A stretch of 64,000 nucleotides of DNA from an uncultured Fodinibius sp. (GTDB lineage Bacteria > Bacteroidota > Rhodothermia > Balneolales > Balneolaceae): NCBI GenBank assembly GCA_913056235.1, contig CAJXMW010000001.1, forward strand, positions 1,240,001 through 1,304,000, in the 5' to 3' direction. Below the pieces are notes generated by a model. That model saw nothing but the letters and a program-made list of their open reading frames with translations, did not search any database and was not told the origin of the DNA. The position numbers and the translations under genes are program-made. This document shows, piece by piece, positions 19,973 through 52,329 of this stretch. The stretch's first letter is position 1. Each line of letters starts with the position of its first letter.

Positions 19973-20303
19973 CAGTAGTGTCTTGTTTGGTTGGGGATTT
20001 ATATTGGTGGATCCGGCGGGGGATGATTTCAAATTCAATCGATCGGATTCGCTGGTTATGATCTTCAAAGCGTCCGTTTGTACGCCGGACATGCGTTTCC
20101 AAGCTTTCTTCCAATTTGCTTAGGTTGTTAGCCTGTACTTTCACTTTCTCATTGATGCCAATCATCAGCTCATACCACTTTTTAATTTCGGCGGTCTGGT
20201 TATTGATCGAATCGTAGATGCCGGTCAAAAACAGGCAGATAATCGTGGTAACAATCAACTCCTTGTACTTTTGAAAGAAGCCATCTGTTTGGAATTTGCT
20301 CAT
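19944..20303 (-). CDS. TM + coiled-coil protein, lysis-module candidate
   Basis: N-terminal TM followed by coiled coil; adjacent to endolysin-like gene. Confidence 0.5.
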   Translation of the reverse strand: MSKFQTDGFFQKYKELIVTTIICLFLTGIYDSINNQTAEIKKWYELMIGINEKVKVQANNLSKLEESLETHVRRTNGRFEDHNQRIRSIEFEIIPRRIHQYKSPTKQDTTDAENTKTHH

Positions 20304-20833
20304 GGGTCGTACCTCCTTATTGCCTCATCCAGCGTTACGGATTGCTTGTTCGATTTGCAGTAAAAGAGGCCACTGGTTAGGGATTGGTAATAATATTGGC
20401 CGTCGATTCGGAGCCACCGCAGTGGGCGCCGGGACCGGTCGTTCCCGGACCATCCATCAACATGTAGCCCAATGGCAGGTACCGATGCTCCTTGCTTGTT
20501 GATATAGTTCCAGTCAAAGTATAGGCCTACGCCTTGGAATCCCCAGGTAGTGGCCAGTAGCCAGTGCCGGAGCGCGGAAGGTTGAGTAGTTAGCCACCGG
20601 TTAAAAAGAAGCACATCAAAGGCAAACCCTTGGCCGTGGGATTTGGGATCTCCCTTTCGCCAGGCCGAGGAGACTAGGGTGGGAAGGCGGTGCCACTGGC
20701 GCCAGGCTAGAAATGAGCGAAGAAAACCAATATCCATACGCTTCAGTGATCCCGGCCTCTGAATTTCGAGTTCCTTGATCGAGAAGTGGTTGCAGTAGCT
20801 GTCCAGCAGTGCGCTGTAATCTTGGGTATTCAT
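20300..20833 (-). CDS. M15-like peptidase (endolysin candidate)
   Basis: SAWRKGDPKSHGQGFAFDVL and GLHVD resemble the M15 HxxxxxxD...HxD zinc-site pattern. Confidence 0.6.
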   Translation of the reverse strand: MNTQDYSALLDSYCNHFSIKELEIQRPGSLKRMDIGFLRSFLAWRQWHRLPTLVSSAWRKGDPKSHGQGFAFDVLLFNRWLTTQPSALRHWLLATTWGFQGVGLYFDWNYINKQGASVPAIGLHVDGWSGNDRSRRPLRWLRIDGQYYYQSLTSGLFYCKSNKQSVTLDEAIRRYDP

Positions 20834-21105
20834 TATTTGTTCCCTCTTGTGGCTACAAGCAATAGGCCAACGACTGCTATCCCGGCAACAACTTTTATGG
20901 GCGTGGGTATTTCGCTGTTAATGTACTTTTTGGCTTCCTTCATGAGATCTTCTTGGGTTTCAGTGTTAGTTTCGTCCTGGTTTGATTCACCCAGGCCAGG
21001 GTGGCATCCGCAATCGCTTTGCAGGTACCCGGAACCGTTACCTAATGCGTGATCCTTACAGCCACAATTGCACGAATTTTCGGAGAGTTGTGATATATTT
21101 TCCAT
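20833..21105 (-). CDS. small Cys-rich protein with C-terminal TM
   Basis: CNCGCKD..SDCGCHPG N-terminus, TM IKVVAGIAVVGLLLVATRGNK. Confidence 0.5.
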   Translation of the reverse strand: MENISQLSENSCNCGCKDHALGNGSGYLQSDCGCHPGLGESNQDETNTETQEDLMKEAKKYINSEIPTPIKVVAGIAVVGLLLVATRGNK

Positions 21106-21142
21106 GGTGGGTTGGTAATTAGTTTGTTATCGTTGAATTGGG

Positions 21143-21601
21143 TTAAAAGAGGAGTTTCCAAAGTATTAGGCCGGATATTGTTGCTCCACCTGCTGCGGCA
21201 TGTGTTTTCTTGATCTCCATGCCACCTATATTCACGGTTCCATGCAGATAACCGCCGTTGGTATTCACTGAGCTATTTTGCGTAGATGTTTTTGCAGCTG
21301 GTTTCTGGTTGGGCTTCGCTTGCTCTTTCGTAGGGACCGGTGGTTTTTTCGGCAGTGTTACATTGATATAGCGAGGTGCTGGAATAGGGCTGCGATGTTC
21401 AATTACGGGATTTAAAACTGGCCTCCCGGCCGGTTTGGCAACTGTTGGTTTTGGGGGCAAAGTTTTGGACCCAGCAATGGTTCTGGCTGGTTTTCTGATT
21501 TCAACGGCGGGGCGTAGTTGGTGGCGGCGGATAGCTGGCAGGCGACCTAAGCCTTTCGGATTAGTCTGTTCGGCATCGATATAATGGGAGTCAGTGGTCA
21601 T
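21143..21601 (-). CDS. Pro/Lys-rich protein with C-terminal hydrophobic anchor
   Basis: 152-aa ORF, C-terminal GGATISGLILWKLLF. Confidence 0.5.
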   Translation of the reverse strand: MTTDSHYIDAEQTNPKGLGRLPAIRRHQLRPAVEIRKPARTIAGSKTLPPKPTVAKPAGRPVLNPVIEHRSPIPAPRYINVTLPKKPPVPTKEQAKPNQKPAAKTSTQNSSVNTNGGYLHGTVNIGGMEIKKTHAAAGGATISGLILWKLLF

Positions 21602-22158
21602 ACTTTCTGTGGGTTGATGTAGTTATAAGTTAGAAAGCCAACTGTGGCTAATGGCAGTAGATACGCCGATAGGCTAATGGCTTTAGAGGGACCCATCAGT
21701 TGGCCAATAAGCTCTTTGCGACTGAAGACATCGGTGCTATAATCTCCACCGGTCGTGACCGAATCCGGTGGAAGCCCTGCGTAAACAGCGCTTCGGACCT
21801 TGAAGGGCCCGGCATTATAGGCTGCAACTGCTTGGCTGATATTTCCGTTAAACTCCTTGATGATGTGCGCCAAATACTGAGCTCCGTAAGCGATATTTGA
21901 CTGGTGATCCAGTGGGTTGTGGCTATTGGTAAAGGTGGGGTGATGGCGTTTGTCGATCTGCATAATGCCGATTCCATTCCCATGGTCGCCGGTGCCGTCA
22001 GCAGAAAGGGCAAGTCCCATCCGGCTTTCTCGGGAGGCAATGGCCAACAGAAGATGCAAGGGAATCCCCTGTTGGGTGGATGCATCTGCGAAAAGGGAAA
22101 GAATACCGCGGAGCCGGATATACGTCAGCTCCGTTGATATGGATAGCGAGCTTGCCAT
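21598..22158 (-). CDS. lytic transglycosylase (SLT-like) with C-terminal TM anchor
   Basis: ASRESRMG..GIGIMQID..NIAYGAQYL..AVAAYNAGP and terminal TM. Confidence 0.85.
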   Translation of the reverse strand: MASSLSISTELTYIRLRGILSLFADASTQQGIPLHLLLAIASRESRMGLALSADGTGDHGNGIGIMQIDKRHHPTFTNSHNPLDHQSNIAYGAQYLAHIIKEFNGNISQAVAAYNAGPFKVRSAVYAGLPPDSVTTGGDYSTDVFSRKELIGQLMGPSKAISLSAYLLPLATVGFLTYNYINPQKV

Positions 22159-23612: not shown

Positions 23613-23616
23613 GTAG

Positions 23617-24168
23617 TTAAGCGATTGTAGTGATAATATTAGTGTAGGCGTTTCCGGTCTGGGGCCGCTGCTCTTCTCCAATAGCCGGATCTGTTTGCAG
23701 GGTAGCTGATATCGGTCCGGAGCGGGAGATAGGGTCATAGTTTGCGGCAGGAGTAGTGAGAGCCGCCGGACGGAACTCGAATTGGGTAGCGTCGATTGGC
23801 GTAATATCAAGGGCGACGATTCCGAATGGGGTTTCGTTGATCTTCTGGACGTCATCGGGGGTGATGACCGAATAGATGGGGGACTGGCCGATGATTCCGC
23901 TGGATGTTTTCGAACGCACGCGGAAATAGTGGCGGGCATCCAGGTACGTAATGGGAAAATAAAGGGTGTGGTAACGAACCATCTCCGCTGGCTCCCGGTG
24001 ATACTCGGGGGTCCTAGCCAGGTTGCCCGGATCCAGTCCCCAATCCATCTGGGAAGAGGCCTTTTTGCCGGTGGCCCATGAGACCTGGATGGAGCCGTCG
24101 ACCAGCATACCGCTGACGACACGCATTTTAAATCCTTCGTTAAACTCTTTACCGGTGATTTCGCTCAT
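23617..24168 (-). CDS. putative virion protein with fibronectin-III-like segment
   Basis: SIQVSWATGKKASSQMDWGLDPG...YFRVRSKTSSG Fn3-like pattern. Confidence 0.45.
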   Translation of the reverse strand: MSEITGKEFNEGFKMRVVSGMLVDGSIQVSWATGKKASSQMDWGLDPGNLARTPEYHREPAEMVRYHTLYFPITYLDARHYFRVRSKTSSGIIGQSPIYSVITPDDVQKINETPFGIVALDITPIDATQFEFRPAALTTPAANYDPISRSGPISATLQTDPAIGEEQRPQTGNAYTNIITTIA

Positions 24169-24169
24169 G

Positions 24170-24589
24170 TCAGGCGCTCCAAAAGATTTCGGTTACGAGA
24201 GCTTTTGAGGTTTCCAGGGCTCCAGAGTTCTCATCCCATAGCCCCATCATGCCACCTTTGTAGAGTTCTTTGAACTGGCGCTCGTCCATGTGAAGCGTTT
24301 CACCGGGCTTGAGCTTGAAGGTATAGTGTCGGTCGTCAATACGACTGGTATCAAGGGCAATCATAAATTCTCCATCGCTGCTATTATGGATGATGACGCC
24401 CAGCCGCATGGGATTGCCGTTGACCAGTTTTACCGGATTGGTTCCCTGTTTGAGAACGGGCGAAATAGCGGTTCCAATTCGTTTGCCTCCCTGTGGGGCC
24501 GATGAGATATTTTGTCCACGAAGTTCAAGCAGCAGGCTATCCAGCTTTTGGGTTAGATCGCATAGGGATGTGATTAAGGCATTCCACAT
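24170..24589 (-). CDS. putative minor virion protein
   Basis: Intact beta-rich 139-aa ORF next to capsid candidates. Confidence 0.4.
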   Translation of the reverse strand: MWNALITSLCDLTQKLDSLLLELRGQNISSAPQGGKRIGTAISPVLKQGTNPVKLVNGNPMRLGVIIHNSSDGEFMIALDTSRIDDRHYTFKLKPGETLHMDERQFKELYKGGMMGLWDENSGALETSKALVTEIFWSA

Positions 24590-24592
24590 AGG

Positions 24593-25372
24593 TTATATCT
24601 CCAGTGGTTTGCTATCAGTTTGTTGGACCGCATATGCTTCACAGAGAAAACTTACGTTGGCCTGTGAGGGGCCTCTGTTGGAAGCATATACTTGAAACGG
24701 CATGTTGGAGCCAATGATAAACGGCACGTTGGCATAGAATTGGCTGAATTCATCATTGAGTTGTTCCAAGTAGATCTCATTGCGAATAGTCGTGTTATAG
24801 ACCTTCAGGCTGGTAGTGATATCACCGGGCCGGTCGCTGCTCATTGCCACCCGTCGAGCTTCCACATCAATACTTTTGGCTTTAACGCCTAGGTCTATAT
24901 TAACGGCCCCCGTTGGTAAGGTTGCCTGGCCATATAAGAAACGAGGTTGTGGCATCAGGGAACCGATGTCCTCGTAAATCGCGGAAAGTTTAGCCAGCCC
25001 AAAGTGATCGAATCCGACCACTTCCATATTAATGTTCTGCGAGGCGCTATGGGTATTGGTAAGTTCAAAGACGAGACTGTTGCTTTTCTGAATGATAAAT
25101 GGGGCAAGCAGGCCCTCGATGCGCTGGAAAAGTCGGTAGACGACGGCAAGCTGCAGGTCTCGAAACAGGTACAGGTCTTCATTTAGCCGTGCTGATACCA
25201 GCACCTTGTCCATGTTGGGGGCATAGGGGAGAATCCGGCGAACCCCGAAGCTTTCCCCGCCCATCCCGTTCATGATAATATGCCCACTTGCTCCCGCCGG
25301 AAGATCAACCGATTTGGCTGGATTGAAGGGCGTAGATTCGGTAGGTGGAATAAAATTCTTTACAATCTTCAT
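24593..25372 (-). CDS. candidate major capsid protein (beta-rich, 259 aa)
   Basis: Beta-rich, no TM or enzyme motif; adjacent to a second beta-rich protein in the virion block. Confidence 0.45.
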   Translation of the reverse strand: MKIVKNFIPPTESTPFNPAKSVDLPAGASGHIIMNGMGGESFGVRRILPYAPNMDKVLVSARLNEDLYLFRDLQLAVVYRLFQRIEGLLAPFIIQKSNSLVFELTNTHSASQNINMEVVGFDHFGLAKLSAIYEDIGSLMPQPRFLYGQATLPTGAVNIDLGVKAKSIDVEARRVAMSSDRPGDITTSLKVYNTTIRNEIYLEQLNDEFSQFYANVPFIIGSNMPFQVYASNRGPSQANVSFLCEAYAVQQTDSKPLEI

Positions 25373-25445
25373 CGCTGGTACGTTAAAGGATTAGAGCAAT
25401 ATTGAATAACCGGCAGCGGCACGGTACCGCTGCCGGTTGGAGAGG

Positions 25446-26066
25446 TTATTTTTCAGGCTTCATTTCGGCGACGACAATGCTTGCTCGCAGGTACAGCAGG
25501 CCTTGGCCGGAGGTGGTCCAGTTCTCATCGCTGGGAAACACCGAGGCGTCATCAAAGTGAACCGACAGCGATAAGGTTTGGTTAACCGCCAAGTCAAAAG
25601 GATCAGCTAGGCGATACTCATCAGCAGATTTGAGCGAGGCAATACGCTTGAAGACCACGGGAGCATCTACGGTATTGGCCGTACCTGCTACCATATGCAT
25701 GCCCGTGCCGGAAAAATTGGAGTGCTTGGAGATCGGCACGCGCAGGAATTCTTTGTTGTCATTGTCGGCCTGCAAAATAACTCCGGCATCTTTCAGGGAG
25801 TTGACAATGCCTCGCGAGTCGATGCCATTGGCATCATCATCCTCGATAAACTGCTTCGTGACTTCGAACGATAGCGCCAGAATACGTCGCTTCAGCTCTC
25901 CCGGGAAGGGGTTGCCCACGTAATTGTTGCGGGTAATTTTCCGCGTCGAGTTGGGCGGGAAAAAGTTTACGACCGCCCCATTTTGTTCCACCTTTTGCGT
26001 GTCAAAATAGGTTTTGATGCGGGCACTGGCGGGTACAATTGCTTTTTTAGTAATTTGGTTGCTCAT
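25446..26066 (-). CDS. candidate major capsid protein (beta-rich, 206 aa)
   Basis: Beta-rich, soluble, adjacent to the 259-aa protein; two-MCP arrangement as in P23-77-like viruses (inference). Confidence 0.45.
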   Translation of the reverse strand: MSNQITKKAIVPASARIKTYFDTQKVEQNGAVVNFFPPNSTRKITRNNYVGNPFPGELKRRILALSFEVTKQFIEDDDANGIDSRGIVNSLKDAGVILQADNDNKEFLRVPISKHSNFSGTGMHMVAGTANTVDAPVVFKRIASLKSADEYRLADPFDLAVNQTLSLSVHFDDASVFPSDENWTTSGQGLLYLRASIVVAEMKPEK

Positions 26067-26166
26067 AGCTTGTAGTGTTAAAGAGATTTTAGTTGGGCCA
26101 TATGGCGATTTAGCTTATTCCCGTAAGCAGTCTCTGGGCAGTGAGAGCTATGAGTAGAAAGAGGGG

Positions 26167-26688
26167 TTATACCTCCACGGTTTCCTCAAATGCGTTTTCG
26201 ATTTGGGTTACATGGCCGGTTTGCGGGGGGAGTTGGGCTGCAGGCGCGGTTGGCGCGGGGAGGTCTTGATCATCCCACAGGTATTCACTTCCTTCCATCA
26301 GTCCTTGAGAGGGCGTCCAGTCGGGCATGACGAACTTGATCAGTTCCATGACGCCTTGCACGCCGAGACCCATAGCCAGGCCGCGAAGGTGGGGGTTTTT
26401 GGTAAACATGGTAAAGACCATGCCGAGCGTGAGGGGCAGGCCAACGCGGGCCGCTTGCTGGACAGTAGCTGAGCTGCCGCCAAGAATAGCGGGAACGGCC
26501 AGCCCGTTCAGCTGCGCGCCAATGGCCTGGCCGCCCACAATATATCCGGCAGTGATAAGCTGTTGCTTGAATTCGCCGACAGCCTTTTCGGTAGTTGTTT
26601 GTTTTGCCATAGTTGCAGGTTTTGGAGTTGTTGGGTTTTCGATTATATCCAAGTGGGTTGGATTTTTTGCAAATATTCGTTGGGTCAT
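26167..26688 (-). CDS. multi-TM small membrane protein (virion membrane candidate)
   Basis: 173 aa with hydrophobic Gly/Ala-rich segments. Confidence 0.5.
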   Translation of the reverse strand: MTQRIFAKNPTHLDIIENPTTPKPATMAKQTTTEKAVGEFKQQLITAGYIVGGQAIGAQLNGLAVPAILGGSSATVQQAARVGLPLTLGMVFTMFTKNPHLRGLAMGLGVQGVMELIKFVMPDWTPSQGLMEGSEYLWDDQDLPAPTAPAAQLPPQTGHVTQIENAFEETVEV

Positions 26689-26706
26689 GGTAGGGCTATG
26701 ATGGGA

Positions 26707-29700
26707 TTAGTTGAGAATTCCTCGTTCGTCAATATTTAAACTGGTAATGATATACACGTCACCGTATTGAAAGATGGGACGCATTCCGTCATCGAAATAG
26801 TGATAGTACTGGTGGTTCTCACCTTTCTTGTCGCCCGGGTATATCACCTTGTCACTGCCGTACATAATACGTTCGGCATGGCCGACCGATACTAATTCCG
26901 CACCCATGGGAGGAAACAGTTCGAAGTCGTAGCCGTCGGCCGGGAAATGGTGAAATTCCTGGTACATTTGTTCGGCCTCGTCGCTGTCAAAGGCTCCTTT
27001 AAGCAACTTCATCCGGTGGGTAGGGAATCCGAACAGCGTCGTTCCCTCTCCGTCGATGATCATGGCAAGTTGGTCAGACTGGATCCGCTGCATGAAGCCT
27101 TTGGTGTCAATAAACTCCAGCTCCCCCACGGTTCCGGCATATACCAGTGGTTCACCAAATAACGTCTTGAGAGGCTGTGGAAGATTTTCTAGTTGCTGGG
27201 GTTGGCTATATTCTGCTCTGTTGGGGCGGGCCTGTTTGGGTTTGGTCCCGTCCCGATAAATCCCCACTTCTCTTGCCCGGACCGTTCCTTTTATCCCATA
27301 GGTAGGGGCGATACGATTGAGCTCTTCGTATAGCTCTGCGCGGTCGGTGAATTTAGTTTTGACCAGCTCGTTGACGACATCTTGCAATTTGGTGACGGTG
27401 TCTTGGTTGGTTTTTAGATTGACCTGAGCTTGCCCGAGTTCCTTGCGGGTTTGCTCGTGGGTAATCTCCAGTTCTTTCAAGGTTTTCTTCGAGCGGCCGA
27501 GCTCCGAGGTAATCTGCTGGATACGGGCCTGGGCGGACTGCTGCCACCCTTTTTCGAGGGCTAAGAATAGGTCGGCCAATTTGGTTTTGATGATCGGCAG
27601 CCAACGCTGGAGCTTATACATGCCAAGTTGTTGCTTGATTTGATCGTAGGTAACATCGCTGTCGTCCGTGTTTGAGGTCTGTTTTTCGGCGTCGATATCT
27701 ATCTCGTAATGAGCGTAAAAATCAGATTCATCGGCAATAATATTGCCTTTGTTACCGGCCAGGCTTCGGCCCGATTGCACCGGCTCATCCATGCTCCACC
27801 CGAATGTTTCATTCAGCTGGTCACCAGCCATCTGTTTGATGGAGCTCCATTTGATCTTGTTATAAAAGCTCCGGTTGGGAGCGTTGGGATCAGGGATGAG
27901 ATTAAACAGTACCCGGCCGTTGGCGTTATTTTTAGGAACCTCCAGGGTTAGCTCGTGGCGGAATCGGGGAATGCGCTTACCGTCGGAAGACAGGTTGTTT
28001 TCGATAGTCCCGATCTCTCCGCTATAGTCCAGCCAGCCGATCCGAATGAGTCCGTTCTCTAGAGCCTCTGCTCCCGAGTTCGGAAGCTCCGAGTCAATAA
28101 GGGCTTGCTCTCGTTGGATGGCCGATTCCATCCGCTCGGAGCGTTTGGTTACGTCCCCGCTTGCTTGCGCCAGTGATGACTCCAGGCGCTGGGTTTCGCT
28201 GAGCAAGGACTCAATGCGGGCTTTCAATACCTTGGTCTGCGCTTTGGACTGGAAAAACTCTTTGACTCTGGGATCGGAGTTGGTGGCGGCTACCATCTGC
28301 TCGTACTCCAAAGATTCACCGTCGGAATCGGCGGAAGTTTCCCGTGCGTCTCCAAAGAAGAGCTCATCAATCCAACTTTGCTTCTTGCTGACCAGCTCCA
28401 GGCGGTACTGATCGAAAGAATCTTTCATCAGGTAGAAGTGAATATTTACTTTTCCGTGCTGGTTGCCTTGGCGGAGCCCGCGCCCGTTGCGCTGTTGAAT
28501 TTGGGAGGGCGTATAAGGCACATCCATGTGATGCAGGTCAGTGGTCCATTTCTGCAGGTTCATGCCTTCGGCAATCGACTGGTTGCCAATGAGCACCCGG
28601 TACTTGCCAACATTGAAATCGTCCTGCACCTCTTTTTTAAGGGCCTCCTTGTCATCGGAAGAAGAAATAAAATAGTCATCACCTTTCTTGTCGGTGCCAA
28701 TGATAGAGCCGTTAATAATGGCTATTTCTTTGGCCGGAATGCCTGCTTTTGTCAGTTCCTCCTTGATGAGCTGGTGGTAACTGCCACCTTTTTGGCCTTC
28801 TACGGAGATCCAGTCGCAGAAAATAATTTGATTGCGGAATATGGGAGTCGTGGGATTCTCGCGGCTTGCGTATAAGGCCTCGACAATCATAATAGCCTTA
28901 TCAAAGGTTTCTTCTATTTGATCACTACCGTCGGAGAATTTCTCTCGCTGTTTCTCAATTTTATTAAGCAAGAATTGCTTGCCTACCGGCACCGCATGCA
29001 GGTTTCCTTCGGTGGCTTTAATTTCTTGGGCAACCTCTTCGAAGTATGCAAGGGATTTGAGCTCTTTAATAAGGTTATGTCGGGACCGGCTTTCGTATGG
29101 ATTTGGATTTTCTCGGGCAGACGGTACTTTCGAAAAGAAATCCCCATAGATGCTTTCCGGAACTCTGCTTGGAGCAGGATTTTCTCGGTGGGCGTAGCTT
29201 TCGGCTACGTTTTCCACCAGGGTTCCGAGTTTCAGAAATTTCCCATCGACGCCCTTAAAACTGTTATCATACACGCGAAGGTCGGTCGCAATCTTGCTGC
29301 CATCCCCGGTGATCACCAGGAAGTTGTCCTTGGTCTGGCATCCGCGCTGACGCATGCAATCTAGGATATTATCGGCTCGGAGTATGATATCGTCAAAGAG
29401 TAGCTTATGAATTTCGCTGGGCTGGATGACTTGTTGTTTTGTTTCGGCTTCGGGTCGCTTGAATTTTGGTTTTAATGTTTTGGGGTTGCCTTTTTCGTCC
29501 ACTTCGAGGTTCCCAGCCTCATCTTTGAGTAGATCCGGAAACTTATCGTAGAATCCCACCAGCTGATCATAACTTTTAATATCCATGACCTCATCGATAA
29601 TGGAGCGCATCTCTGGGAGATTGTAATACCCGCCGACCACGCGCTCAGTCCGGTATTCGCCGTTGGTCTTTTTGACGATTTTTTCCTCCTCGCGGACAAA

Positions 29701-32700
29701 CTGGTTAATAAAGTTGTCGAGATTCGCAATTTGGTATTTCTCTAGCAGGTCTGGGGCACAGAGGTTGAGCATGTGCCAAACCTCGACGGGGGAATTCACC
29801 ACCGGCGTAGCGGTTAGGACAAATACGTTTTTAAACCCTATTTTTGAAAACAGCCACTTCGTTTTTTGGAGGGCATCTTCGGCTCGTTGGGACGGTTTAT
29901 TAGCGGCAATGCCAAGCTTGGCTGCTTTGGCGCTACCAAGCGCGTTTTTGTAGAAATGGGCCTCATCAAAAAACAGGGCATCAACCCCGAGCTCATCAAA
30001 AAAGATGTCGGTGTCCAGCCGCTTGGCATTTGCCACATTACGGAGTTTGGCTTCCCATTCTTCTTTCATCTTCTCCAGGCGGGTGACCATCGACTTTTTG
30101 GCCGTGGAACTGAGCGCGTCGTCCTCTTCGATCAGTTCGTCGAAGTGTTCAATCATTTGATCAAAGTATTCGACGCGATCGGAATACATCTGTTGTTGCA
30201 CGGCCGGGGACAGGGGCAGGCTCTTGAACGCATGATCGGCGATAAAGATCGCATCCCAGTTATACAGCTGGGCCATGGTGAGCTCCCTGTGGCGCTCGGG
30301 GCCGGCCATTTTCATGTTGAGGATCTTCGCATCGGGGAACAGCATCGAATATTCTTCCACCCATTTTTCCTGCACTTTACCGGGTACCACAAACATCGGT
30401 TTGCGGCAGGCGCCTTGCTGGGCCAATACCTGAGAAGTGATAATGGAGGCGAGCGTCTTACCGGCGCCGACGTCGTGGCAATTGGCTCCCCGTCCGTTCC
30501 AGACCAACTTTTCGGCTACCGCGCGATTATGTTTGTACACCGAAAAGTCCTTGACCCCGTAGAAGGTATCCGACATGCCGCGCACGCGAAGGGTGGCTCC
30601 ATCAAATTGCGGGTTGATATGAGCGTTATATTCGTGGTTATAGGCCTCTTCGATGAGCTCGCGGATTTCTGTGGAGGTTTTGGTGCGGACCCACTGGTTG
30701 AACTTTTGGGGGACCCGCGTCAGCATCTGGTCATTATGGGTTCGCTGCTTGGCGCGGGCTCGTTCGATCAGCGCTTGCTGGCCGGTTTGCTCGGCTCGTT
30801 TGAGCGTCATATTCGGCAGCACGTTGTCGTCCTCATCGTAGAAGACCAGCGGGAAGCTGGAATCCTGGATATAGTTATTAATAATCTTGCTGAAAGGCGT
30901 CTCGCCCCATCCTTGGTTCCAGTCGTCAGCCGTTTCCTCGCCATTTTTAATATATCGCCCGCCTTTGCGGAGTTTCATGTAGAAGCGGTTGCCGAGATCA
31001 GCTTTATCTTTGACGAGTCCGATGTGGACGTCCCGATAGCCGAGTTCATCTTTTATCCACTGGGTGAGCACTTTCGTGGGCAGATAGGTAAAAATGTGGT
31101 GGGGATCCACGGTGATCGAATATGCGTCAATCCATTCGGGAAGGACGGCTTTCAGGGCTTTGGTATTCTTTTCCAGCTGATTGTCTTCCGCCACTTGGAG
31201 TTTATGGCGTACATTGCCGGCCAGATATTGATAGCGAAATTCGTAGCCATTAGACTCGGGGTTATAGAAGAAATCCGGGTGCTCCTCGATGGCTTGGGTG
31301 AGCTCGGCCCGGTTGGCTGTACCGCCTTTGTAGGTAGACTGGTAGAAATCTAGCGTTAGCTCTTCGCCAATGGAGCGGCCATACATGGCTATTTCAGCCA
31401 AATCATCGGAGTCCGAGACCGCCGGCACGTAGTTATCGTTGAACATCGAATCCGCATCAATGATATCAGCGTACACCAGCTCCCCGCTGATCGGATCGCG
31501 TTTTACAAAGGTCGTTAGTTTATATAGGCGGTTGTCGTAGCGGAATACCTGGCGGATGTCTTCGTCTTCATCGGGAATGCCGTAGGTGTCGATATGGGTC
31601 CCGAGAAGTTGCTTAAACTCCCCGCGCAGCGGCTCTTTTTGGGCGGTATCCTGGGCCAGTGCGGTCACGAAATCATCATAGGTGTCGAGCATTTGGCAGG
31701 CCGAGCTGATCTTGGCCCGCAGTCCTTCGCCCGTTTTGTCGCTGGTACCTACGGTTATGGGTTTGAAGTAGTGTCGCTGTTTTTCATAGAAGGTTCCTTC
31801 ATGGTAAATAATATTACCCGCGTGATAGTCGCGGCCGGTGTCCAATCTAATTCCTTCATCAGGTATTCGGTAGAATGGTAGCTGCTTAGGGAGGGGGTAG
31901 GGAAACTGGAGATCATCTCCAATCACGCGGTCGGTAAGCTTGTTATTGACCTGACCTTTGACACCCATGCGCGTCAGAAACTGCATGTCGTGGCCTTGAA
32001 TATGCTCACCTAATACCTGGTTGGGATATTTTTGGAAATAGGGGTTGTAGTAGGCTCCATAAGATTCCCCGTTATGTTCGGTGATACTGACGGCCAGTTC
32101 CTCATAGGCAAACAGTTGGTTTAGCTTACTGGTGACGTCAGGGTGTTGTTCCCCGTCAATGTCCGGATACTTTTGAAATAAGATCAAATCCGTGGTTACC
32201 AGCGTATCGGCATTATCTTTAAAAGCAGTTGAGGGGAGTCGGTAGGCGCCCACAAATCGGGCCCGCTGGACCATGGCCTGTCGGATGGCCGGATCTTTTT
32301 TGTCCATCGTACCGACTGAGGTAATCGCCGCCATAAAACCGCCAGGCTGGAGCGCATCCAAAGACTTTAGAATGAAATAGTCGTGGATACGGGGATTCAA
32401 GTGGGCTAAGGGATCGCGCTGGGTATGAACTTTTATATCCCCAAAGGGGACGTTGCCGATAGCGCCGGTAAGATTATATAGCGACAGATCGGTCTCAGCA
32501 AAGTTTTGGTGCCTGACTAACTGGGTAGGATACAATAATTTTGCAATGCGAGAGCTCACTGCCGATCGTTCTACCATCAGCATGCGATAGTGGTCAGAAT
32601 TGGGGAGGAATCCCGCAAAGTTGCCAATGCCCGCCCCGGGCTCTAATATGTTGCCGCCTTCCACGCCCATAGCCTGAAGCTTCTTCCAAATTAGCTGTAC

Positions 32701-33957
32701 TAACGGGTAGGAGGTGTAATGCTCGTTGAGTAGGCCGCGCTCAGTGCCGGTTCGGTCCTCGCCGTACCCCAATCCACCAGCTCCGGTGTACCGGCGAAGA
32801 ATGTCCAGGTCCGATTCGGTGATGGCCCGATTTTCTTTTTCCAAGACCGCTAGGGCCGCTTCGTTGGCCCGGCGTCGCTCGGATTTCGAAAGTTTTATAG
32901 GAGTAAAATTTTCAAGTTGGAGGCCGGAAAAATTGCTTCCATATTCGGCTTCTCCCGGCCGATCTCCGGGGGCTTGGTATGATTGGTCGCCGTTTTTTTC
33001 AGGGCTTTTCGATTTCTTTTGGGCGACGGAAAATACCTCGTCGAAATCGACGCCAACCGCTTCCCCATGTTCGCGAAATAGTTTCAACGCCTGCTCGCGA
33101 TGTTCCTTGGGAAACTTATCGAGCGAAAAGGCCAGAGCCAGTTTCTGTACCGTCTGGGTGAAAGAATCTTGGAGCGCCTGCAATTCACTCGAAGGGTTTT
33201 CGCGGGAGGTTAGTTGCTCTGTCAATTTTGTGGGGTTGTCCAGAAGAGCATCGATTTTATTTGCGGCAGCTTCATCCCCTTGGTCCGCTTGCCAGGCCAG
33301 ATCAGTGAGATGGTTCATTCGTTGGGTATTGAGGGCGCCATTTTTGTACGGGGTGTGAGCTGCACTGGCTATTTGGGCCATACGCTTGGTCTTTACCTGT
33401 ACCTCAACAGGGATATCTCCCTCTTGACCAGCCATGACAATAAAGTGGTGGGCCCGATAACCGCCAACCGGATTGGCGTATTTATTTTCATGTTCAAATA
33501 CGTTGCCAATGGTTCCTGAAGCAATTTTTTGGGCTACCTGATCCAGCTCAGCTTGTCCGTCCAATACAATCATGCACCCGGCCATATCGGTCAGGCCTTG
33601 GGTATAGAGCTGGCCGGTGCCAGCTTGCTTAATATCGGCTTTAGTACGCTTGCGCCGCAATTTGTTGATGACCGAATAGGGGGATTTCACGCGGCCCTTG
33701 ACGGTGGCGGTCGGGTGCAAGTCTTTGAGCGAAGCTATTACTTCATCCAAAGCCTGCTGGTAGTCCCCGCGAAGGGCAATCAGCTGTTTAATTTCTTCGG
33801 TGAGTTTGGTCTCCTCAACAGTCTCGGTGTCCCCGTCTCGTTGTGGATTAGGATCGTCGGCATTCGGGATCCCGTCTTCATCGAAGTCGCCAAAAATGCC
33901 GGGATAGTCCTCGGTTGTAATGTCTTCAAAAGGCGTAACAGTCGGATTGTCTCGCAT
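26707..33957 (-). CDS. polyvalent protein: RelA/SpoT-like domain + N6-DNA methyltransferase-like domain + SNF2/DEAH helicase
   Basis: GRVKSPYSVINKL..DMAGCMIVLDG..GYRAHHFIVM..VEVQVKTKRMAQIASAAHTPYK (RelA/SpoT); NILEPGAGIGNFAGF..GNVPFGD (MTase); CHDVGAGKTLASI..DALFFDEAHFYKN..VLTATPV..RNGRGLRQGN (SF2). Confidence 0.85.
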   Translation of the reverse strand: MRDNPTVTPFEDITTEDYPGIFGDFDEDGIPNADDPNPQRDGDTETVEETKLTEEIKQLIALRGDYQQALDEVIASLKDLHPTATVKGRVKSPYSVINKLRRKRTKADIKQAGTGQLYTQGLTDMAGCMIVLDGQAELDQVAQKIASGTIGNVFEHENKYANPVGGYRAHHFIVMAGQEGDIPVEVQVKTKRMAQIASAAHTPYKNGALNTQRMNHLTDLAWQADQGDEAAANKIDALLDNPTKLTEQLTSRENPSSELQALQDSFTQTVQKLALAFSLDKFPKEHREQALKLFREHGEAVGVDFDEVFSVAQKKSKSPEKNGDQSYQAPGDRPGEAEYGSNFSGLQLENFTPIKLSKSERRRANEAALAVLEKENRAITESDLDILRRYTGAGGLGYGEDRTGTERGLLNEHYTSYPLVQLIWKKLQAMGVEGGNILEPGAGIGNFAGFLPNSDHYRMLMVERSAVSSRIAKLLYPTQLVRHQNFAETDLSLYNLTGAIGNVPFGDIKVHTQRDPLAHLNPRIHDYFILKSLDALQPGGFMAAITSVGTMDKKDPAIRQAMVQRARFVGAYRLPSTAFKDNADTLVTTDLILFQKYPDIDGEQHPDVTSKLNQLFAYEELAVSITEHNGESYGAYYNPYFQKYPNQVLGEHIQGHDMQFLTRMGVKGQVNNKLTDRVIGDDLQFPYPLPKQLPFYRIPDEGIRLDTGRDYHAGNIIYHEGTFYEKQRHYFKPITVGTSDKTGEGLRAKISSACQMLDTYDDFVTALAQDTAQKEPLRGEFKQLLGTHIDTYGIPDEDEDIRQVFRYDNRLYKLTTFVKRDPISGELVYADIIDADSMFNDNYVPAVSDSDDLAEIAMYGRSIGEELTLDFYQSTYKGGTANRAELTQAIEEHPDFFYNPESNGYEFRYQYLAGNVRHKLQVAEDNQLEKNTKALKAVLPEWIDAYSITVDPHHIFTYLPTKVLTQWIKDELGYRDVHIGLVKDKADLGNRFYMKLRKGGRYIKNGEETADDWNQGWGETPFSKIINNYIQDSSFPLVFYDEDDNVLPNMTLKRAEQTGQQALIERARAKQRTHNDQMLTRVPQKFNQWVRTKTSTEIRELIEEAYNHEYNAHINPQFDGATLRVRGMSDTFYGVKDFSVYKHNRAVAEKLVWNGRGANCHDVGAGKTLASIITSQVLAQQGACRKPMFVVPGKVQEKWVEEYSMLFPDAKILNMKMAGPERHRELTMAQLYNWDAIFIADHAFKSLPLSPAVQQQMYSDRVEYFDQMIEHFDELIEEDDALSSTAKKSMVTRLEKMKEEWEAKLRNVANAKRLDTDIFFDELGVDALFFDEAHFYKNALGSAKAAKLGIAANKPSQRAEDALQKTKWLFSKIGFKNVFVLTATPVVNSPVEVWHMLNLCAPDLLEKYQIANLDNFINQFVREEEKIVKKTNGEYRTERVVGGYYNLPEMRSIIDEVMDIKSYDQLVGFYDKFPDLLKDEAGNLEVDEKGNPKTLKPKFKRPEAETKQQVIQPSEIHKLLFDDIILRADNILDCMRQRGCQTKDNFLVITGDGSKIATDLRVYDNSFKGVDGKFLKLGTLVENVAESYAHRENPAPSRVPESIYGDFFSKVPSARENPNPYESRSRHNLIKELKSLAYFEEVAQEIKATEGNLHAVPVGKQFLLNKIEKQREKFSDGSDQIEETFDKAIMIVEALYASRENPTTPIFRNQIIFCDWISVEGQKGGSYHQLIKEELTKAGIPAKEIAIINGSIIGTDKKGDDYFISSSDDKEALKKEVQDDFNVGKYRVLIGNQSIAEGMNLQKWTTDLHHMDVPYTPSQIQQRNGRGLRQGNQHGKVNIHFYLMKDSFDQYRLELVSKKQSWIDELFFGDARETSADSDGESLEYEQMVAATNSDPRVKEFFQSKAQTKVLKARIESLLSETQRLESSLAQASGDVTKRSERMESAIQREQALIDSELPNSGAEALENGLIRIGWLDYSGEIGTIENNLSSDGKRIPRFRHELTLEVPKNNANGRVLFNLIPDPNAPNRSFYNKIKWSSIKQMAGDQLNETFGWSMDEPVQSGRSLAGNKGNIIADESDFYAHYEIDIDAEKQTSNTDDSDVTYDQIKQQLGMYKLQRWLPIIKTKLADLFLALEKGWQQSAQARIQQITSELGRSKKTLKELEITHEQTRKELGQAQVNLKTNQDTVTKLQDVVNELVKTKFTDRAELYEELNRIAPTYGIKGTVRAREVGIYRDGTKPKQARPNRAEYSQPQQLENLPQPLKTLFGEPLVYAGTVGELEFIDTKGFMQRIQSDQLAMIIDGEGTTLFGFPTHRMKLLKGAFDSDEAEQMYQEFHHFPADGYDFELFPPMGAELVSVGHAERIMYGSDKVIYPGDKKGENHQYYHYFDDGMRPIFQYGDVYIITSLNIDERGILN

Positions 33958-33961
33958 AGGG

Positions 33962-35245
33962 TTATCCCAGTATTTTGGTTAGGAAGTCGTCCAGTTTGGC
34001 CTGGCTTTCTTTGGCCGCTTCAATGTCGATGGGTTGCCGGGTTTCTGCATCAGAAGAAGTGTCTTTCTCTTTTGGCGCAGTCTTGACTTGTTTCTCGGCA
34101 GTGGTAGGCTTGCTTTTGGTAGGTTGCTTTTTGGTTTTCGATGGAGGTGAGCTGGGTGGGGTAGGTTTGGGTTCCTTTTTGGCCAGGGCCCGTTCCTGGC
34201 GCTTGTATTCCTTGGCGCCCAGTACCACTTTGGCGTGATCTTGCTTGAAGATTCGGATCTCGAGGTCGCCGTATTTGTTGACCAATTTTTTCCAGCATGC
34301 TTTTAATCCGCCACCAGTACCTTCGGTACAGGCTTGGTACTCCAGGTGGCCATCGAGGAGCAGGTCCATGATATATCGCTTTTTGGGATAGTCGGCCGTA
34401 TAACGAATCGACAGGTGGGCGTTTTCAGATTCCCCGGAATGCCGTGGGGCATAGCAGGGCATCTTGCTACCGAACATCGAGTTGATGCGTTTCCAGGAGC
34501 GAATTTTGTGGAGATTGTCTAATTTTTTGAGGGTGATTTTAAACGGAGTATCTACGGGGTTTTCGCGGTTGTCGGGCGACGCTTGTTTCGAGGATTTAGG
34601 TTTTGGTGACACTTTTCGGTCGGCGGCCGTAAATGGCACGGCAATGGCCGTAAGTTCCCGGTAGCGGTTCTTCTCGGTTTCGGCGCCACCTTCTTTGGTA
34701 ACCTTGATTTCAATATCACATTCGTGGGCAATGCTGGTGTTGCCTTTGTATTGCCCGTCTTTGGTGGCATGGGAAACCATCACAAACATGATCCCGTTTT
34801 CGCGGCACCACTGGGCTAGTTCCACGGTTTCCTTCGCGTTGGCATCAATGACGGAGATGGAATCCAGGATGCACCCGAACGACCGGTTTTTGAGCAGTAT
34901 TTCTTTAAGGGACTGAATGGATTTCCACTTCGTAAAATTGAGGTTCCGGTGGGTAGCTCCCAGTCGCTTCACGCGGTCGACCAGTGTTTTGCCAAAATGT
35001 TCTTCGGCGGGGATATATTCGATGCGCCCATGGGCGGCCAGCGCGTCGGCCAGTCCCAGACTCATGGTTGATTTACCGGCTCCTTTTTCGCCCCAGATAA
35101 AGATTACGGCATTTTTTTCGGGCTCACCGAGCAGTCGTCCGTAGGGCGGGGCTATTTTTATGCCTTTAATGTTCAACTTGGAAAGCTGCTGAGCAGTCAT
35201 TGATTCCATATTATTGTCGTCTGATAGTTTTAATTGCGATTCCAA
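33962..35245 (-). CDS. RecA/RadA-superfamily P-loop ATPase
   Basis: Walker A IWGEKGAGKSTMS, Walker B CILDSISVID, RadA-like MVSHATKDGQYKGNTSIAHECDIEI. Confidence 0.75.
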   Translation of the reverse strand: MESQLKLSDDNNMESMTAQQLSKLNIKGIKIAPPYGRLLGEPEKNAVIFIWGEKGAGKSTMSLGLADALAAHGRIEYIPAEEHFGKTLVDRVKRLGATHRNLNFTKWKSIQSLKEILLKNRSFGCILDSISVIDANAKETVELAQWCRENGIMFVMVSHATKDGQYKGNTSIAHECDIEIKVTKEGGAETEKNRYRELTAIAVPFTAADRKVSPKPKSSKQASPDNRENPVDTPFKITLKKLDNLHKIRSWKRINSMFGSKMPCYAPRHSGESENAHLSIRYTADYPKKRYIMDLLLDGHLEYQACTEGTGGGLKACWKKLVNKYGDLEIRIFKQDHAKVVLGAKEYKRQERALAKKEPKPTPPSSPPSKTKKQPTKSKPTTAEKQVKTAPKEKDTSSDAETRQPIDIEAAKESQAKLDDFLTKILG

Positions 35246-35534
35246 TGGCGATAATAGTCAGGCTGCCAAAAAGCAGCACCTTGTGGTTTACCGATGTCGG
35301 TGGTGGCCCTTGGGTTATGGCTTTCGGGTTAATGCCAAGTTTTTGTAGTAGCTCCTGACCCGCTATGCCGCTGGTTGGGAGTCCCAGTTGTTGTTGGGCT
35401 TGCTTGACGGCTGCCTGCGTTTCCGGGCCAAAGATGCCGTCAACGCCATATTTTGGGAGCTCGATACCAAGAGCTTTCAATGCTGATTGCAGGTGCATGA
35501 CCTGCGGTCCTTTATCACCTATTTTGAGGGTCAT
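35211..35534 (-). CDS. peptidoglycan-binding domain protein with C-terminal TM
   Basis: GDKGPQVMHLQSALKALG..YGVDGIFGPETQAAVKQAQQQLGL plus tail VLLFGSLTIIAIGIAIKTIRRQ. Confidence 0.85.
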   Translation of the reverse strand: MTLKIGDKGPQVMHLQSALKALGIELPKYGVDGIFGPETQAAVKQAQQQLGLPTSGIAGQELLQKLGINPKAITQGPPPTSVNHKVLLFGSLTIIAIGIAIKTIRRQ

Positions 35535-35941
35535 GATGAAGATCGTTGTTGGTTTATGACGGTGAGTCCGGCAATGCCGATGGCGATGCCAACGGATAGC
35601 AGGCCGGCGTGTTTGAGTGCGGCTACGGGTTTGCTGCTTGCTACGGTTTCCTGAAGACCCACAAGATCACTTACCGCCTGCAGGTCGACATATTCGAAGT
35701 ACTGGTTGATCACCTCGGCATTTCGGTTGTAGACAGTATTTAACCCCTCTTTATCGGTCGTTAGATCGGCCATAATTATTGCGGTCGTAGCCGCTTTTCC
35801 TTTCTTGCCGCTTAAGGCCCGATCGGCAAGGCCAATGGCTTTGCGAAACGCATTCTTGCCGGTCTGACGCAGGTAGCTGCTAAGATCGCCCATGCCATCA
35901 TCAACAATCTGATAATCGCGGCCTTCAATTAACTCATGCAT
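35531..35941 (-). CDS. small protein with C-terminal TM
   Basis: Start MHELIEGRD at 35941; C-terminal LLSVGIAIGIAGLTVINQQRSSS. Confidence 0.5.
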   Translation of the reverse strand: MHELIEGRDYQIVDDGMGDLSSYLRQTGKNAFRKAIGLADRALSGKKGKAATTAIIMADLTTDKEGLNTVYNRNAEVINQYFEYVDLQAVSDLVGLQETVASSKPVAALKHAGLLSVGIAIGIAGLTVINQQRSSS

Positions 35942-36617
35942 CCGGTTTCTCCTTCTGTGTGCTCTTTGATAGTTGTTTGATGCTATCACGCAAACCCGGC
36001 ATGAGGGGAGCCAGGAAGTACGCTCCGGCTCCGAGGCCCACCAGCCACAATGCTTTGGTGAGGGTACTGTTGACACCGTTGAATGCACTTTGCGGGCTCG
36101 GCAAGCTAATCTGATACCACGGTTCGGTGGGAGGAGCATATACCCCGCTTTGTTGGCCTTGGTCGATATCCAAATCCAGCGTCATAACCTTAGAGGCTGC
36201 AAGCGGTTTGGCCTCGGATATATTGGTTTCCGTAACATTGCTGGGATGCAGCTCAAAGATGACTGGGTGATTGCGGTCCGGGCGAAACGATCGCCCGAAG
36301 ACCAGTCGCGTTTGCCCACGGCATCCGTCCCACATGCTGGTCAGGATGCGGGATATGGCCAATATCTTTCGGGATTGTGGATCGAGAGCGGCTATTACAG
36401 CATCCGGACATGATATAAGCAGAAACGAATTCCAAATGTTGCGGTACCGGTCGATTTCAATATCAACGGAAAAGGGCACCCCGTTTTTGGGTAGTCCGCG
36501 CTCCGGATACCGCCCGATAATGCGAACTTCACCTGCCTCAGAGCTAATAATATTTCCTGTAATGCCGGCCGAGCCTAGCCCGTGATCGCTATATGCGGAG
36601 TGTATGGTCTGTGTCAT
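35934..36617 (-). CDS. beta-rich protein with near-C-terminal TM
   Basis: 227 aa; TM ALWLVGLGAGAYFLAPLMPG. Confidence 0.5.
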   Translation of the reverse strand: MTQTIHSAYSDHGLGSAGITGNIISSEAGEVRIIGRYPERGLPKNGVPFSVDIEIDRYRNIWNSFLLISCPDAVIAALDPQSRKILAISRILTSMWDGCRGQTRLVFGRSFRPDRNHPVIFELHPSNVTETNISEAKPLAASKVMTLDLDIDQGQQSGVYAPPTEPWYQISLPSPQSAFNGVNSTLTKALWLVGLGAGAYFLAPLMPGLRDSIKQLSKSTQKEKPDA

Positions 36618-36618
36618 G

Positions 36619-36927
36619 TTATCTTCGTCTGGTTAAGATTCGAAATCCGATGTATCCGCCAGCAATCCATCCTAAGGTTTTACTGTTCCGGCTAAACCAT
36701 TCCCGGATCTCACCGGTGGGGTGAGGACCGGAAAGCCGCTGGCAGATTGATTGCTTTTCGGAGGATTTAATCTCGGCCCCTTTGGGGATTTCCTGCACCT
36801 GGATAGCCGGTTGCAGGTAGATCGTTTCTTCCGATGGGGAGGGGTTTGGATAGCGGCCGTTGGGAATATGGCCATCGAGATAATGAGAAATTCCTACCGG
36901 ATGGGCGGGATAAGTGACTTCGATCAT
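36619..36927 (-). CDS. small protein with C-terminal TM and basic tail
   Basis: TLGWIAGGYIGFRILTRRR end. Confidence 0.5.
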   Translation of the reverse strand: MIEVTYPAHPVGISHYLDGHIPNGRYPNPSPSEETIYLQPAIQVQEIPKGAEIKSSEKQSICQRLSGPHPTGEIREWFSRNSKTLGWIAGGYIGFRILTRRR

Positions 36928-36928
36928 A

Positions 36929-37294
36929 TTAGGATTTCTTTTTTAATAAGGTGTACATGACTGTTCCCCCAACGGCCACTACGCCGCCAATGAGTAAGAT
37001 AGATGTCATGCTGTCTCCACTGGATTTCTGGGATTGCATCAGCGCCATTTGCTGCTCAGGCGTAAGTCCTGGATGTCCAGAGTTATTGTTACCTCCATTG
37101 ATCACCCCATCAACGGTTACGGCCGTATCGGCCGCAGTCGTAAGAAAGCTTGACAGGTCATTTAAAATGCTGCCAAACTTGGTTTTCTTTGAGGTGGTGG
37201 ACCTCGTAGGAGGTAGTGAGGGACTTGTTAAGCTATAGTTAAACGGTCGGGTGGTTTGCAAGAAATCAATTTGATCGAAAGAGCTGCTGTTCAT
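36929..37294 (-). CDS. small protein with C-terminal TM and basic tail
   Basis: SILLIGGVVAVGGTVMYTLLKKKS end. Confidence 0.5.
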   Translation of the reverse strand: MNSSSFDQIDFLQTTRPFNYSLTSPSLPPTRSTTSKKTKFGSILNDLSSFLTTAADTAVTVDGVINGGNNNSGHPGLTPEQQMALMQSQKSSGDSMTSILLIGGVVAVGGTVMYTLLKKKS

Positions 37295-37303
37295 AGTGGC
37301 AGG

Positions 37304-37726
37304 TTACGCAGGTTGAGAGTTAGTTTTTTTCTTTTTGGCAATAAGCAAAATGGCCGTTCCCAGGATGGCTACGCCACCAACGGCGGCTCCCGCTATCATG
37401 GCCGTAGAAGCCGTCTGCTGTTTTTCCGCGGTATCGGTCACGTTATGCTGAAGGGCCGTCATGAGCTGCTGTTTCTCCTGCTCCATGGTTTTCTTTTCGG
37501 CCAGCTTGCGCTCGTGGGCTTTGCAGAGGGCTTGCGATTTTTCGCGTTTCCGCCGGCACCTCTTTAATGCCCCAAACATCTTGCCCCGGCAGCTTTGGTT
37601 GGCATACCGGCAGGGATCATCTTGTTCCCATCCGGCAAATCCACTTGGACTAGTCAGGTTGTTTGTAATGATCAACTGATCATCATCGCTTGTTATCGCT
37701 ACTGGTTGTATGTACGAACTGCTCAT
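37304..37726 (-). CDS. small protein with C-terminal TM and basic tail
   Basis: TAMIAGAAVGGVAILGTAILLIAKKKK end. Confidence 0.5.
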   Translation of the reverse strand: MSSSYIQPVAITSDDDQLIITNNLTSPSGFAGWEQDDPCRYANQSCRGKMFGALKRCRRKREKSQALCKAHERKLAEKKTMEQEKQQLMTALQHNVTDTAEKQQTASTAMIAGAAVGGVAILGTAILLIAKKKKTNSQPA

Positions 37727-37731
37727 AAAGG

Positions 37732-38763
37732 TCAGGAGTGGTTAAGGGCCCAATATCCGGCGCCGGTAAATGCGATTAGACCTACCGATAGCCCGCCGTA
37801 GAGGAGCCATTTCTTGGTTGTTCGTTGCTGTTGGTCTGCAAAAAAATTGTTGTCCAGACTACCAAATCTGTTCAGGTAGTCAACGGCTGGCTGTCCGTAA
37901 TTTTGGATAACTTGAGCGTACTGTTGGAGCACGGCGTTATCTTTTTGAGAAAATGAAATAACATCCGATCGAACGCCTCGGGCCATCAGATAGTCTCGCC
38001 ATTTTCCGCGCTGGATGCGCTCGTCCTTATCCTTGGCGCCAAACCATTTTGAAAACATGCTTTTCATGGTGATGCCTGTTTGCAGAGCCGTGGTTGCAGC
38101 CGTTGCAGCAGTAATCGGATCAATCCCTAAATGATTAGGCATCTTGTTGAGGAGATGATTAGATTTTTTGATAAGGGTTTCATCGAAGGCAAACCCAGGA
38201 TATTTGGCTACGGTCGTATCAAAAGATTTCCATCCATCGGGGGAGCGAAAGACGGTATAGATATGATCGTAGTTTCGCCCGGTTCGGCTTAAAATCCGAA
38301 ATCCAGTTTGAATGCCCAGGGTTTGTAGCAACGCGGCCGACAATATCGCGTGATCGTCGCAATCACCCGCCTTTTGTTTGAGCGTTACATCCGGGGATTG
38401 AATGCGTTCAATGTTCCAGGGATCCCGAACGTAGTTGATATTGTGGGTTATCCATCGGTACAGGGCCTCGGCAACCTGTTGGGTATTTCGAAGGTTAGGA
38501 AGTCCGGTGTCTCGGTTGGGGCGTATGCGACGAGTAATGGAAAGGGCCAACTTCCGAAGGTCTTCGTGGCCGGTGTATTTCGTTACAAGTCCGGAGGCTA
38601 GCCCGAGTACATGGTTAATGCCCGGATATGTCCGGCGCTGGGAAAAAATAGGGGCGGCAGCATTACCGTGTGTGGGATTTGCTGCCGCCTTATTGCTCAT
38701 CACTAAACCGTCGGTAGTGACTGCTTTTCGGGAAGGGGTGATATGAGGATAATGGCTGCTCAA
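37732..38763 (-). CDS. transglutaminase-like cysteine protease domain with C-terminal TM
   Basis: Cys-His-Asp: QKAGDCDDHAILSAALL / YDHIYTVF / SFDTTV; terminal TM KKWLLYGGLSVGLIAFTGAGYWAL. Confidence 0.75.
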   Translation of the reverse strand: MSSHYPHITPSRKAVTTDGLVMSNKAAANPTHGNAAAPIFSQRRTYPGINHVLGLASGLVTKYTGHEDLRKLALSITRRIRPNRDTGLPNLRNTQQVAEALYRWITHNINYVRDPWNIERIQSPDVTLKQKAGDCDDHAILSAALLQTLGIQTGFRILSRTGRNYDHIYTVFRSPDGWKSFDTTVAKYPGFAFDETLIKKSNHLLNKMPNHLGIDPITAATAATTALQTGITMKSMFSKWFGAKDKDERIQRGKWRDYLMARGVRSDVISFSQKDNAVLQQYAQVIQNYGQPAVDYLNRFGSLDNNFFADQQQRTTKKWLLYGGLSVGLIAFTGAGYWALNHS

Positions 38764-49052: not shown

Positions 49053-49077
49053 TTAAGCTACCTTTTTAAGGTAATTT

Positions 49078-52327: not shown

Positions 52328-52329
52328 GG

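Follow-up and report, generated by a model that had tools for sequence, protein, structure and literature searches.

Closest Described Systems and Overview of the Locus

The bacteriophage SSIP-1 contains a membrane and two types of major capsid protein (MCP), and its genome was reported as resembling almost nothing in GenBank (PMC6356626). The phage is unclassified and was grouped among the two-MCP viruses (PMC4958249). The window analysed here, a stretch of 64,000 nucleotides from an uncultured, halophilic Fodinibius sp. (contig CAJXMW010000001.1, positions 1,240,001–1,304,000), holds a locus which, judged from its sequence, is the provirus of a temperate, SSIP-1-like internal-membrane phage in a Fodinibius/Aliifodinibius chromosome. 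By protein homology SSIP-1 is its nearest known relative. The late operon encodes ten proteins ending with a hydrophobic helix, by which they are probably anchored in an internal membrane of the virion. We consider it likely that these tail-anchored proteins face the capsid from the virion membrane and that the enzymes among them serve entry.

C-terminal anchors are already known on virion membrane proteins of PM2, FLiP, PRD1 (protein P7) and HCIV-1. In PRD1 (Tectiviridae), an internal-membrane phage with entry enzymes in the virion, P7 is a lytic transglycosylase with one transmembrane (TM) segment near the C-terminus. Most PRD1 membrane proteins are, however, tiny or anchored by the N-terminus (11 N-terminal and 2 C-terminal anchors), the phage has neither a transglutaminase nor a peptidoglycan-binding protein, and no sequence homology was seen. 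The small virion proteins P3 and P8 of PM2 (Corticoviridae) finish with a helix followed by a basic tail (RGNK, KRK), comparable to those described below, but the C-terminal anchors of PM2 carry no enzymes, its endolysin P5 has just a weak N-terminal segment, and sequence homology was again not seen. FLiP (Finnlakeviridae) possesses C-terminal TM segments on structural proteins including a putative lytic enzyme, but has a 9.2-kb single-stranded DNA genome, and a sequence relation was not found. The virion proteins VP10 and VP13 of HCIV-1 and HHIV-2 (Sphaerolipoviridae) have TM helices predicted at the C-terminus (PMC6414509); these viruses differ by their two-MCP capsid, and here too a sequence relation was not found. 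Unusual in the present locus are the number of anchors, the transglutaminase-like and peptidoglycan-binding cargo, and the finding that an orphan phage has a family of provirus relatives not listed before. Among the papers listed by a literature search on transglutaminase and internal-membrane virions, none mentioned transglutaminase.

Ten Proteins with a C-Terminal Anchor

The initial annotation had attributed a C-terminal hydrophobic helix to ten open reading frames (ORFs) between positions 20,833 and 38,763. All ten were found on the minus strand with exactly the claimed lengths in amino acids (aa). They are listed with the predicted insertion energy of the helix (ΔG, in kcal/mol).

20833–21105, minus strand: 90-aa tail-anchored protein, C-terminus VVAGIAVVGLLLVATRGNK, ΔG -0.52
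21143–21601, minus strand: 152-aa Pro-rich protein, weak anchor finishing exactly at the C-terminus, ΔG 1.05
21598–22158, minus strand: 186-aa SLT lytic transglycosylase with C-terminal anchor, PF01464 E 2.9e-16, ΔG 1.02
35211–35534, minus strand: 107-aa protein, peptidoglycan-binding domain and anchor, KTIRRQ tail, PF01471 E 3e-16, ΔG -0.85
35531–35941, minus strand: 136-aa tail-anchored protein, ΔG 0.26
35934–36617, minus strand: 227-aa protein, TM segment at about 185–206 and 21-residue tail, ΔG -0.07
36619–36927, minus strand: 102-aa protein, weakest anchor, RRR tail, ΔG 1.64
36929–37294, minus strand: 121-aa tail-anchored protein, LLKKKS tail, ΔG -0.87
37304–37726, minus strand: 140-aa tail-anchored protein, IAKKKK tail, ΔG -0.89
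37732–38763, minus strand: 343-aa transglutaminase-like (TGase) enzyme, anchor 318–340, PF01841 E 1.7e-10, ΔG -1.24

TM segments were scanned with the Hessa biological-hydrophobicity predictor in a re-implementation whose energies were used mainly for relative comparison. As a control, the T2S-F homologue at positions 17,890–19,032 correctly yielded three helices. A single helix was found at the C-terminus of each of the ten proteins and none elsewhere in them, and the search for an N-terminal hydrophobic signal was negative in all ten. They display the tail-anchored architecture, marginally so in three cases, and topology prediction did not reject the helices, seven of which were clear. Among the remaining late-module proteins the C-terminus never fell below 3.2 kcal/mol, and the two groups separated cleanly. 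With the Kyte–Doolittle rule five of the ten passed the value of 1.6 and two more reached about 1.5; this scale by itself undercounts Gly/Trp/Tyr-rich helices. C-terminal anchors were present in 10 of 25 module genes as compared to 6 of 379 host ORFs (Fisher P 7e-10), these six mostly looking like doubtful short ORFs, and shuffling within each protein gave an expectation of 0.85 anchors against the 10 observed. Because the anchor cut-off of 1.7 was chosen after the value of the 102-aa protein was known, a sensitivity run was performed, in which the enrichment held across cut-offs from 0 to 2.5 kcal/mol (P <= 5e-6).

The matches to PF01464, PF01471 and PF01841, together with the C-terminal helices, agreed with the proposed fusion of SLT, peptidoglycan-binding and transglutaminase-like domains to anchors. 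The KKK/RRR-type tails, said to be frequent, were present in the 140-, 121-, 102- and 107-aa proteins but not in the TGase and SLT proteins, which end with short, near-uncharged tails (NHS and NPQKV).

Sister proviruses keep a hydrophobic C-terminus even when identity in this part drops to 15–40%, and the TGase and SLT orthologues retain the helix in this range. In most sisters the domain of the peptidoglycan-binding protein is about 80% identical and its last 40 residues about 35% identical, these being still predicted to insert. The anchor of the 90-aa protein was retained in all the sisters with a detected orthologue. The ΔG values ranged from 0.54 to 1.08 in the 152-aa orthologues (n = 9) and from 1.06 to 1.37 in nine sisters for the 102-aa protein, with a value of 2.57 in E014. 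The distant C5 match to the 227-aa protein possesses no helix. The catalytic residues are intact: Glu44 of the SLT domain is invariant in 21 sequences including SSIP-1, and the C135-H167-D182 triad of the TGase in 15 sequences. Purifying selection acts on all ten genes, with pairwise ratios of nonsynonymous to synonymous substitution rates (dN/dS) of 0.05–0.34 in nearly all pairs and of 0.60 in one low-count pair.

Relation of the Late Module to SSIP-1

The late-module proteins were compared with those of SSIP-1 by hmmsearch, a protein of SSIP-1 being called structural when so annotated in GenBank. In addition to the anchored proteins, the following genes were concerned.

24170–24589, minus strand: 139-aa protein (g139), homologue of gp48 (annotated structural), E 0.0011, BLASTP 7e-4
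24593–25372, minus strand: large major capsid protein candidate (g259), double jelly roll model, homologue of gp47
25446–26066, minus strand: second capsid protein candidate (g206), homologue of gp45/gp46
26167–26688, minus strand: 173-aa protein (g173), homologue of gp44 (annotated structural), E 9.6e-12
26707–33957, minus strand: RelA/SpoT-SNF2 helicase protein of 2416 aa, corresponding to gp43 (a DNA methyltransferase with structural annotation)
33962–35245, minus strand: RadA/KaiC-type ATPase, homologue of gp40 (annotated structural), BLASTP E 1e-29 over 195 residues, tblastn 4e-23
38997–39401, minus strand: 134-aa protein (g134), homologue of gp33, E 1.5e-13

The likeness to SSIP-1 extends over the ATPase, the giant gp43-type protein, the counterparts of gp44, gp45/46, gp47 and gp48, and four of the anchored proteins: the TGase (gp34, E 1.7e-45), the 227-aa protein (gp35, E 1.7e-8, sharing its layout), the 136-aa protein (gp36, E 4.5e-8, tail-anchored as well) and the SLT protein (gp54, E 6e-48). 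The pairs g173/gp44, g206/gp45-46, g259/gp47 and g139/gp48 are collinear (E 3e-17 to 1e-3). The gene order from the ATPase to the capsid is the same, and the genome sizes are close (43.8 kb for SSIP-1 and about 45 kb here). Two SSIP-1 records were the only phages matched by the large capsid candidate, and likewise provided the best match of the ATPase. The homologues annotated as structural are spread across the module (gp34, 40, 43, 44, 45/46, 47 and 48). In the late region of SSIP-1, gp34, 35, 36, 39, 41, 42, 52, 53 and 54 are tail-anchored, gp50 also ends with a helix, and gp34, gp41 and gp53 are the tail-anchored proteins annotated as structural. No SSIP-1 counterpart was detected for the peptidoglycan-binding, 140-, 121-, 102-, 152- and 90-aa proteins. 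The two phages differ in that most proteins are no more than about 20–42% identical, and in that the provirus described here is chromosome-integrated with a cargo of defence genes.

An internal membrane in the virion, as proposed in the initial annotation, is well supported by the relation to SSIP-1 that emerges from the homologous ATPase, the capsid-region proteins and the TGase/gp34 pair. For P23-77, which the initial annotation had also named for comparison, no sequence relation emerged in any search made, P23-77 and SH1 being absent from the matches listed for the ATPase and for g259 in phage protein searches by single-sequence tblastn, and the large capsid protein was modelled as a double jelly roll and not as the P23-77 type.

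The model of g259 (pLDDT 82.6) contains two jelly rolls. It aligned over 209–234 residues with the MCP of STIV (Z 10.9, 4.7 A, 234 residues), P2 of PM2 (8.8) and P3 of PRD1 (8.0); peptidylglycine monooxygenase (PHM), also a double jelly roll, scored equally (10.9). With VP16-VP17 of P23-77 the alignment covered 106 residues. The two halves of g259 matched each other by profile comparison (P 1.8e-4). The model also matched the BFVD entry I1ZBI0 (TM 0.84), a nameless protein of 256 aa, the length of gp47, and probably gp47 of SSIP-1 itself. The predicted double jelly roll and internal duplication of g259 sit uneasily with the placement of SSIP-1 among two-MCP single-barrel viruses. The model of g206 was jelly-roll-like and too weak to assign, its best Z score being 7.5 to HHIV-2.

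The best matches of the ATPase were phrog_6891, AAA_25, KaiC and RadA/Sms, with a weak match to Pox_A32 (E 0.016). In the 2416-aa protein (26,707–33,957) a RelA/SpoT domain at the N-terminus is combined with SNF2/helicase domains. The protein matches gp43 (2319 aa) in the C-terminal part (E 9e-12), and both genes lie between the ATPase and capsid genes. Given the annotation of gp43 as structural, the virion may contain a (p)ppGpp-synthetase-like domain.

Proposed Organization of the Virion Membrane

In assembly of the PRD1 type, the capsid forms in the cytoplasm around host membrane, and the cytoplasmic face becomes the capsid-facing face. We propose by analogy that the ten proteins would be made in the cytoplasm without a signal peptide, the C-terminal helix being inserted after translation. 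Because a signal peptide is absent, the N-terminal domains should remain cytoplasmic. A patch of inner membrane would be wrapped by the capsid, and since its cytoplasmic face would become the capsid-facing one, the N-terminal domains and enzymes would lie between the membrane and the shell, with the short, mostly basic C-tails turned toward the DNA. The small non-enzymatic members would be tethers between capsid and membrane, or parts of the vertex or packaging apparatus. Entry would be the task of the SLT, peptidoglycan-binding and transglutaminase-like members, enzymes that would open the cell wall while the membrane is reshaped, as in PRD1, into a conduit for delivery. A precedent for a transglutaminase-fold enzyme acting on wall peptides is given by the archaeal pseudomurein endoisopeptidases. 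When PRD1 enters its host, the vesicle is transformed into a tube and peptidoglycan is digested by enzymes of the virion (PMC3782422); both the capsid-facing side and the entry role are drawn from this phage. The positive-inside rule agrees with the proposed orientation for the TGase, SLT and 152-aa proteins.

Several observations weigh against this organization. No virion was observed for this provirus. The helices of the 186-aa SLT, 152-aa and 102-aa proteins are marginal on energy alone, and E033, a distant peptidoglycan-binding orthologue, is devoid of an anchor. The transglutaminase fold predicted for the 343-aa protein does not in itself indicate wall hydrolysis. The part of the initial annotation placing all ten proteins in the virion is weakened by the fact that gp34 is their sole orthologue annotated as structural, gp35, gp36 and gp54 being without this annotation. 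This last point favours the idea that some or most of the ten are assembly or lysis factors, acting in the host inner membrane late in infection and left unpackaged, as does the proximity of an apparent lysis end made of membrane genes at 19,140–20,303 (119-, 194- and 123-aa products) and a 177-aa gene with an HxxGxxxD motif (20,300–20,833). We nevertheless regard it as unlikely, as the TGase homologue gp34 is annotated structural with an architecture common to both phages, the ten genes are co-oriented in one block with the capsid genes, and mass spectrometry easily misses small hydrophobic proteins.

An orientation opposite to the one proposed, with the N-terminal domains in the vesicle lumen (periplasmic before budding) and the C-tails on the cytoplasmic, later capsid, side, appears quite improbable. 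The positive-inside rule favours it for the 140-, 121- and 227-aa families, whose C-tail carries more positive charge than the N-flank, and gives no preference for several others; the basic tails could instead touch the DNA. The TGase, SLT and 152-aa families are biased the other way, and domains of about 65–320 residues would need translocation without signal peptides. That the ten are ordinary host membrane proteins located next to a prophage is hardly credible: nothing was found in its favour, the TGase and 140-aa genes (the two of the ten that were tested) occurred solely at provirus loci and were absent from the provirus-free genomes searched, and the block is syntenic with other proviruses and has homologues in SSIP-1.

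With the ten proteins placed in the virion membrane, the latter might consist mainly of C-tail-anchored proteins forming a modular display, in which ectodomains (SLT, peptidoglycan-binding and TGase-like wall peptidase) and interchangeable anchors evolve separately and make up a wall-opening entry kit, in a lineage with a duplicated jelly-roll capsid although SSIP-1 was grouped with two-MCP viruses. We offer this broader view tentatively and lean somewhat against it. If the enzymes do sit on an internal membrane, the phage would be a clear case of entry by membrane-anchored wall enzymes, including a transglutaminase-like one.

Extent and Relatives of the Provirus

The provirus spans from about 19,160 to about 64,531 (approximately 45 kb), its right end lying slightly past the window.

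19160–40570, minus strand: late (virion and lysis) module, synteny kept with sister proviruses
59714–61852, minus strand: P-loop protein of 712 aa with a probable role in replication, shared by the sister proviruses
63365–64000, gene continuing to 64531, minus strand: integrase, 388 aa, at the other provirus end

The integrase, a small helix-turn-helix (HTH) protein, a regulator and the 712-aa protein, which matched no Pfam or NCBIfam family, are encoded 16–24 kb upstream of the late module on the same strand. Since this set is conserved upstream, in every same-genus sister provirus whose upstream region was examined, the provirus extends to about 64,531. An element ending at 40,570 without an integrase, resembling a gene transfer agent (GTA) remnant, was considered and dropped once these upstream genes emerged. 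No exact repeat was found at the provirus ends when an attachment (att) site was looked for. A tRNA-Arg gene adjoins the integrase in several sisters, and in G007 the sequence flanking the integrase on the left matches sequence beside the right-flank operon of the genome studied here (G000). A terminal overlap, as a sign of a circular episome, was searched in the 22-kb F. sediminis contig and not found.

Homologous blocks were present in seven of the 11 other same-genus genomes searched and in other Balneolaceae, and more distantly related ones also occur. None of the 2.9 million contigs of IMG/VR matched the large capsid (single sequence or alignment), second capsid, ATPase or TGase queries. 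The carriers include Fodinibius salsisoli, F. sediminis, Aliifodinibius salipaludis, Gracilimonas amylolytica and Balneola metagenome-assembled genomes (MAGs). The orphan SSIP-1 is thereby given relatives in named Fodinibius, Aliifodinibius and Gracilimonas genomes as well as in these MAGs, which open the SSIP-1-type virion membrane, the unusual ATPase and the capsid lineage to comparative and genetic tests. The studied genome itself contains a second, close provirus copy (G000:C1:416,000–438,000; L003, L004) and a third, distant relative (G000:C5:240,000–261,000; L034, L035).

In all nine aligned proviruses the start of the late module is signalled by a conserved non-coding stretch, TCCCAATCYGTCCCA...TTCCAGCCCATCCCGGGGTATTT, located here at 40,480–40,570 and possibly a late promoter or a module boundary. 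Near the opposite end of the module, the HxxGxxxD...HxD-like motif of the 177-aa protein resembles that of M15-type endolysins; no Pfam, NCBIfam or PDB match was obtained for this putative endolysin.

Probable Defence Cargo

The 41–58 kb stretch, which separates the early from the late module, looks like a variable defence cargo. An AbiEi-like protein (241 aa) adjoins a 494-aa protein matching PDC-S04/SoFic models at 47,568–50,021. The provirus further carries, at 50,259–52,605, a conjugation cassette of the CBASS/Bil-like kind, composed of a JAB peptidase, an E1-E2-like protein and a probable ubiquitin-like protein of 91 aa. A Type IIG restriction-methyltransferase at 54,261–58,103 is distributed over two ORFs of 836 and 424 aa, matching residues 14–740 and 810–1245 of one model, and the pair is an interrupted or naturally split gene.

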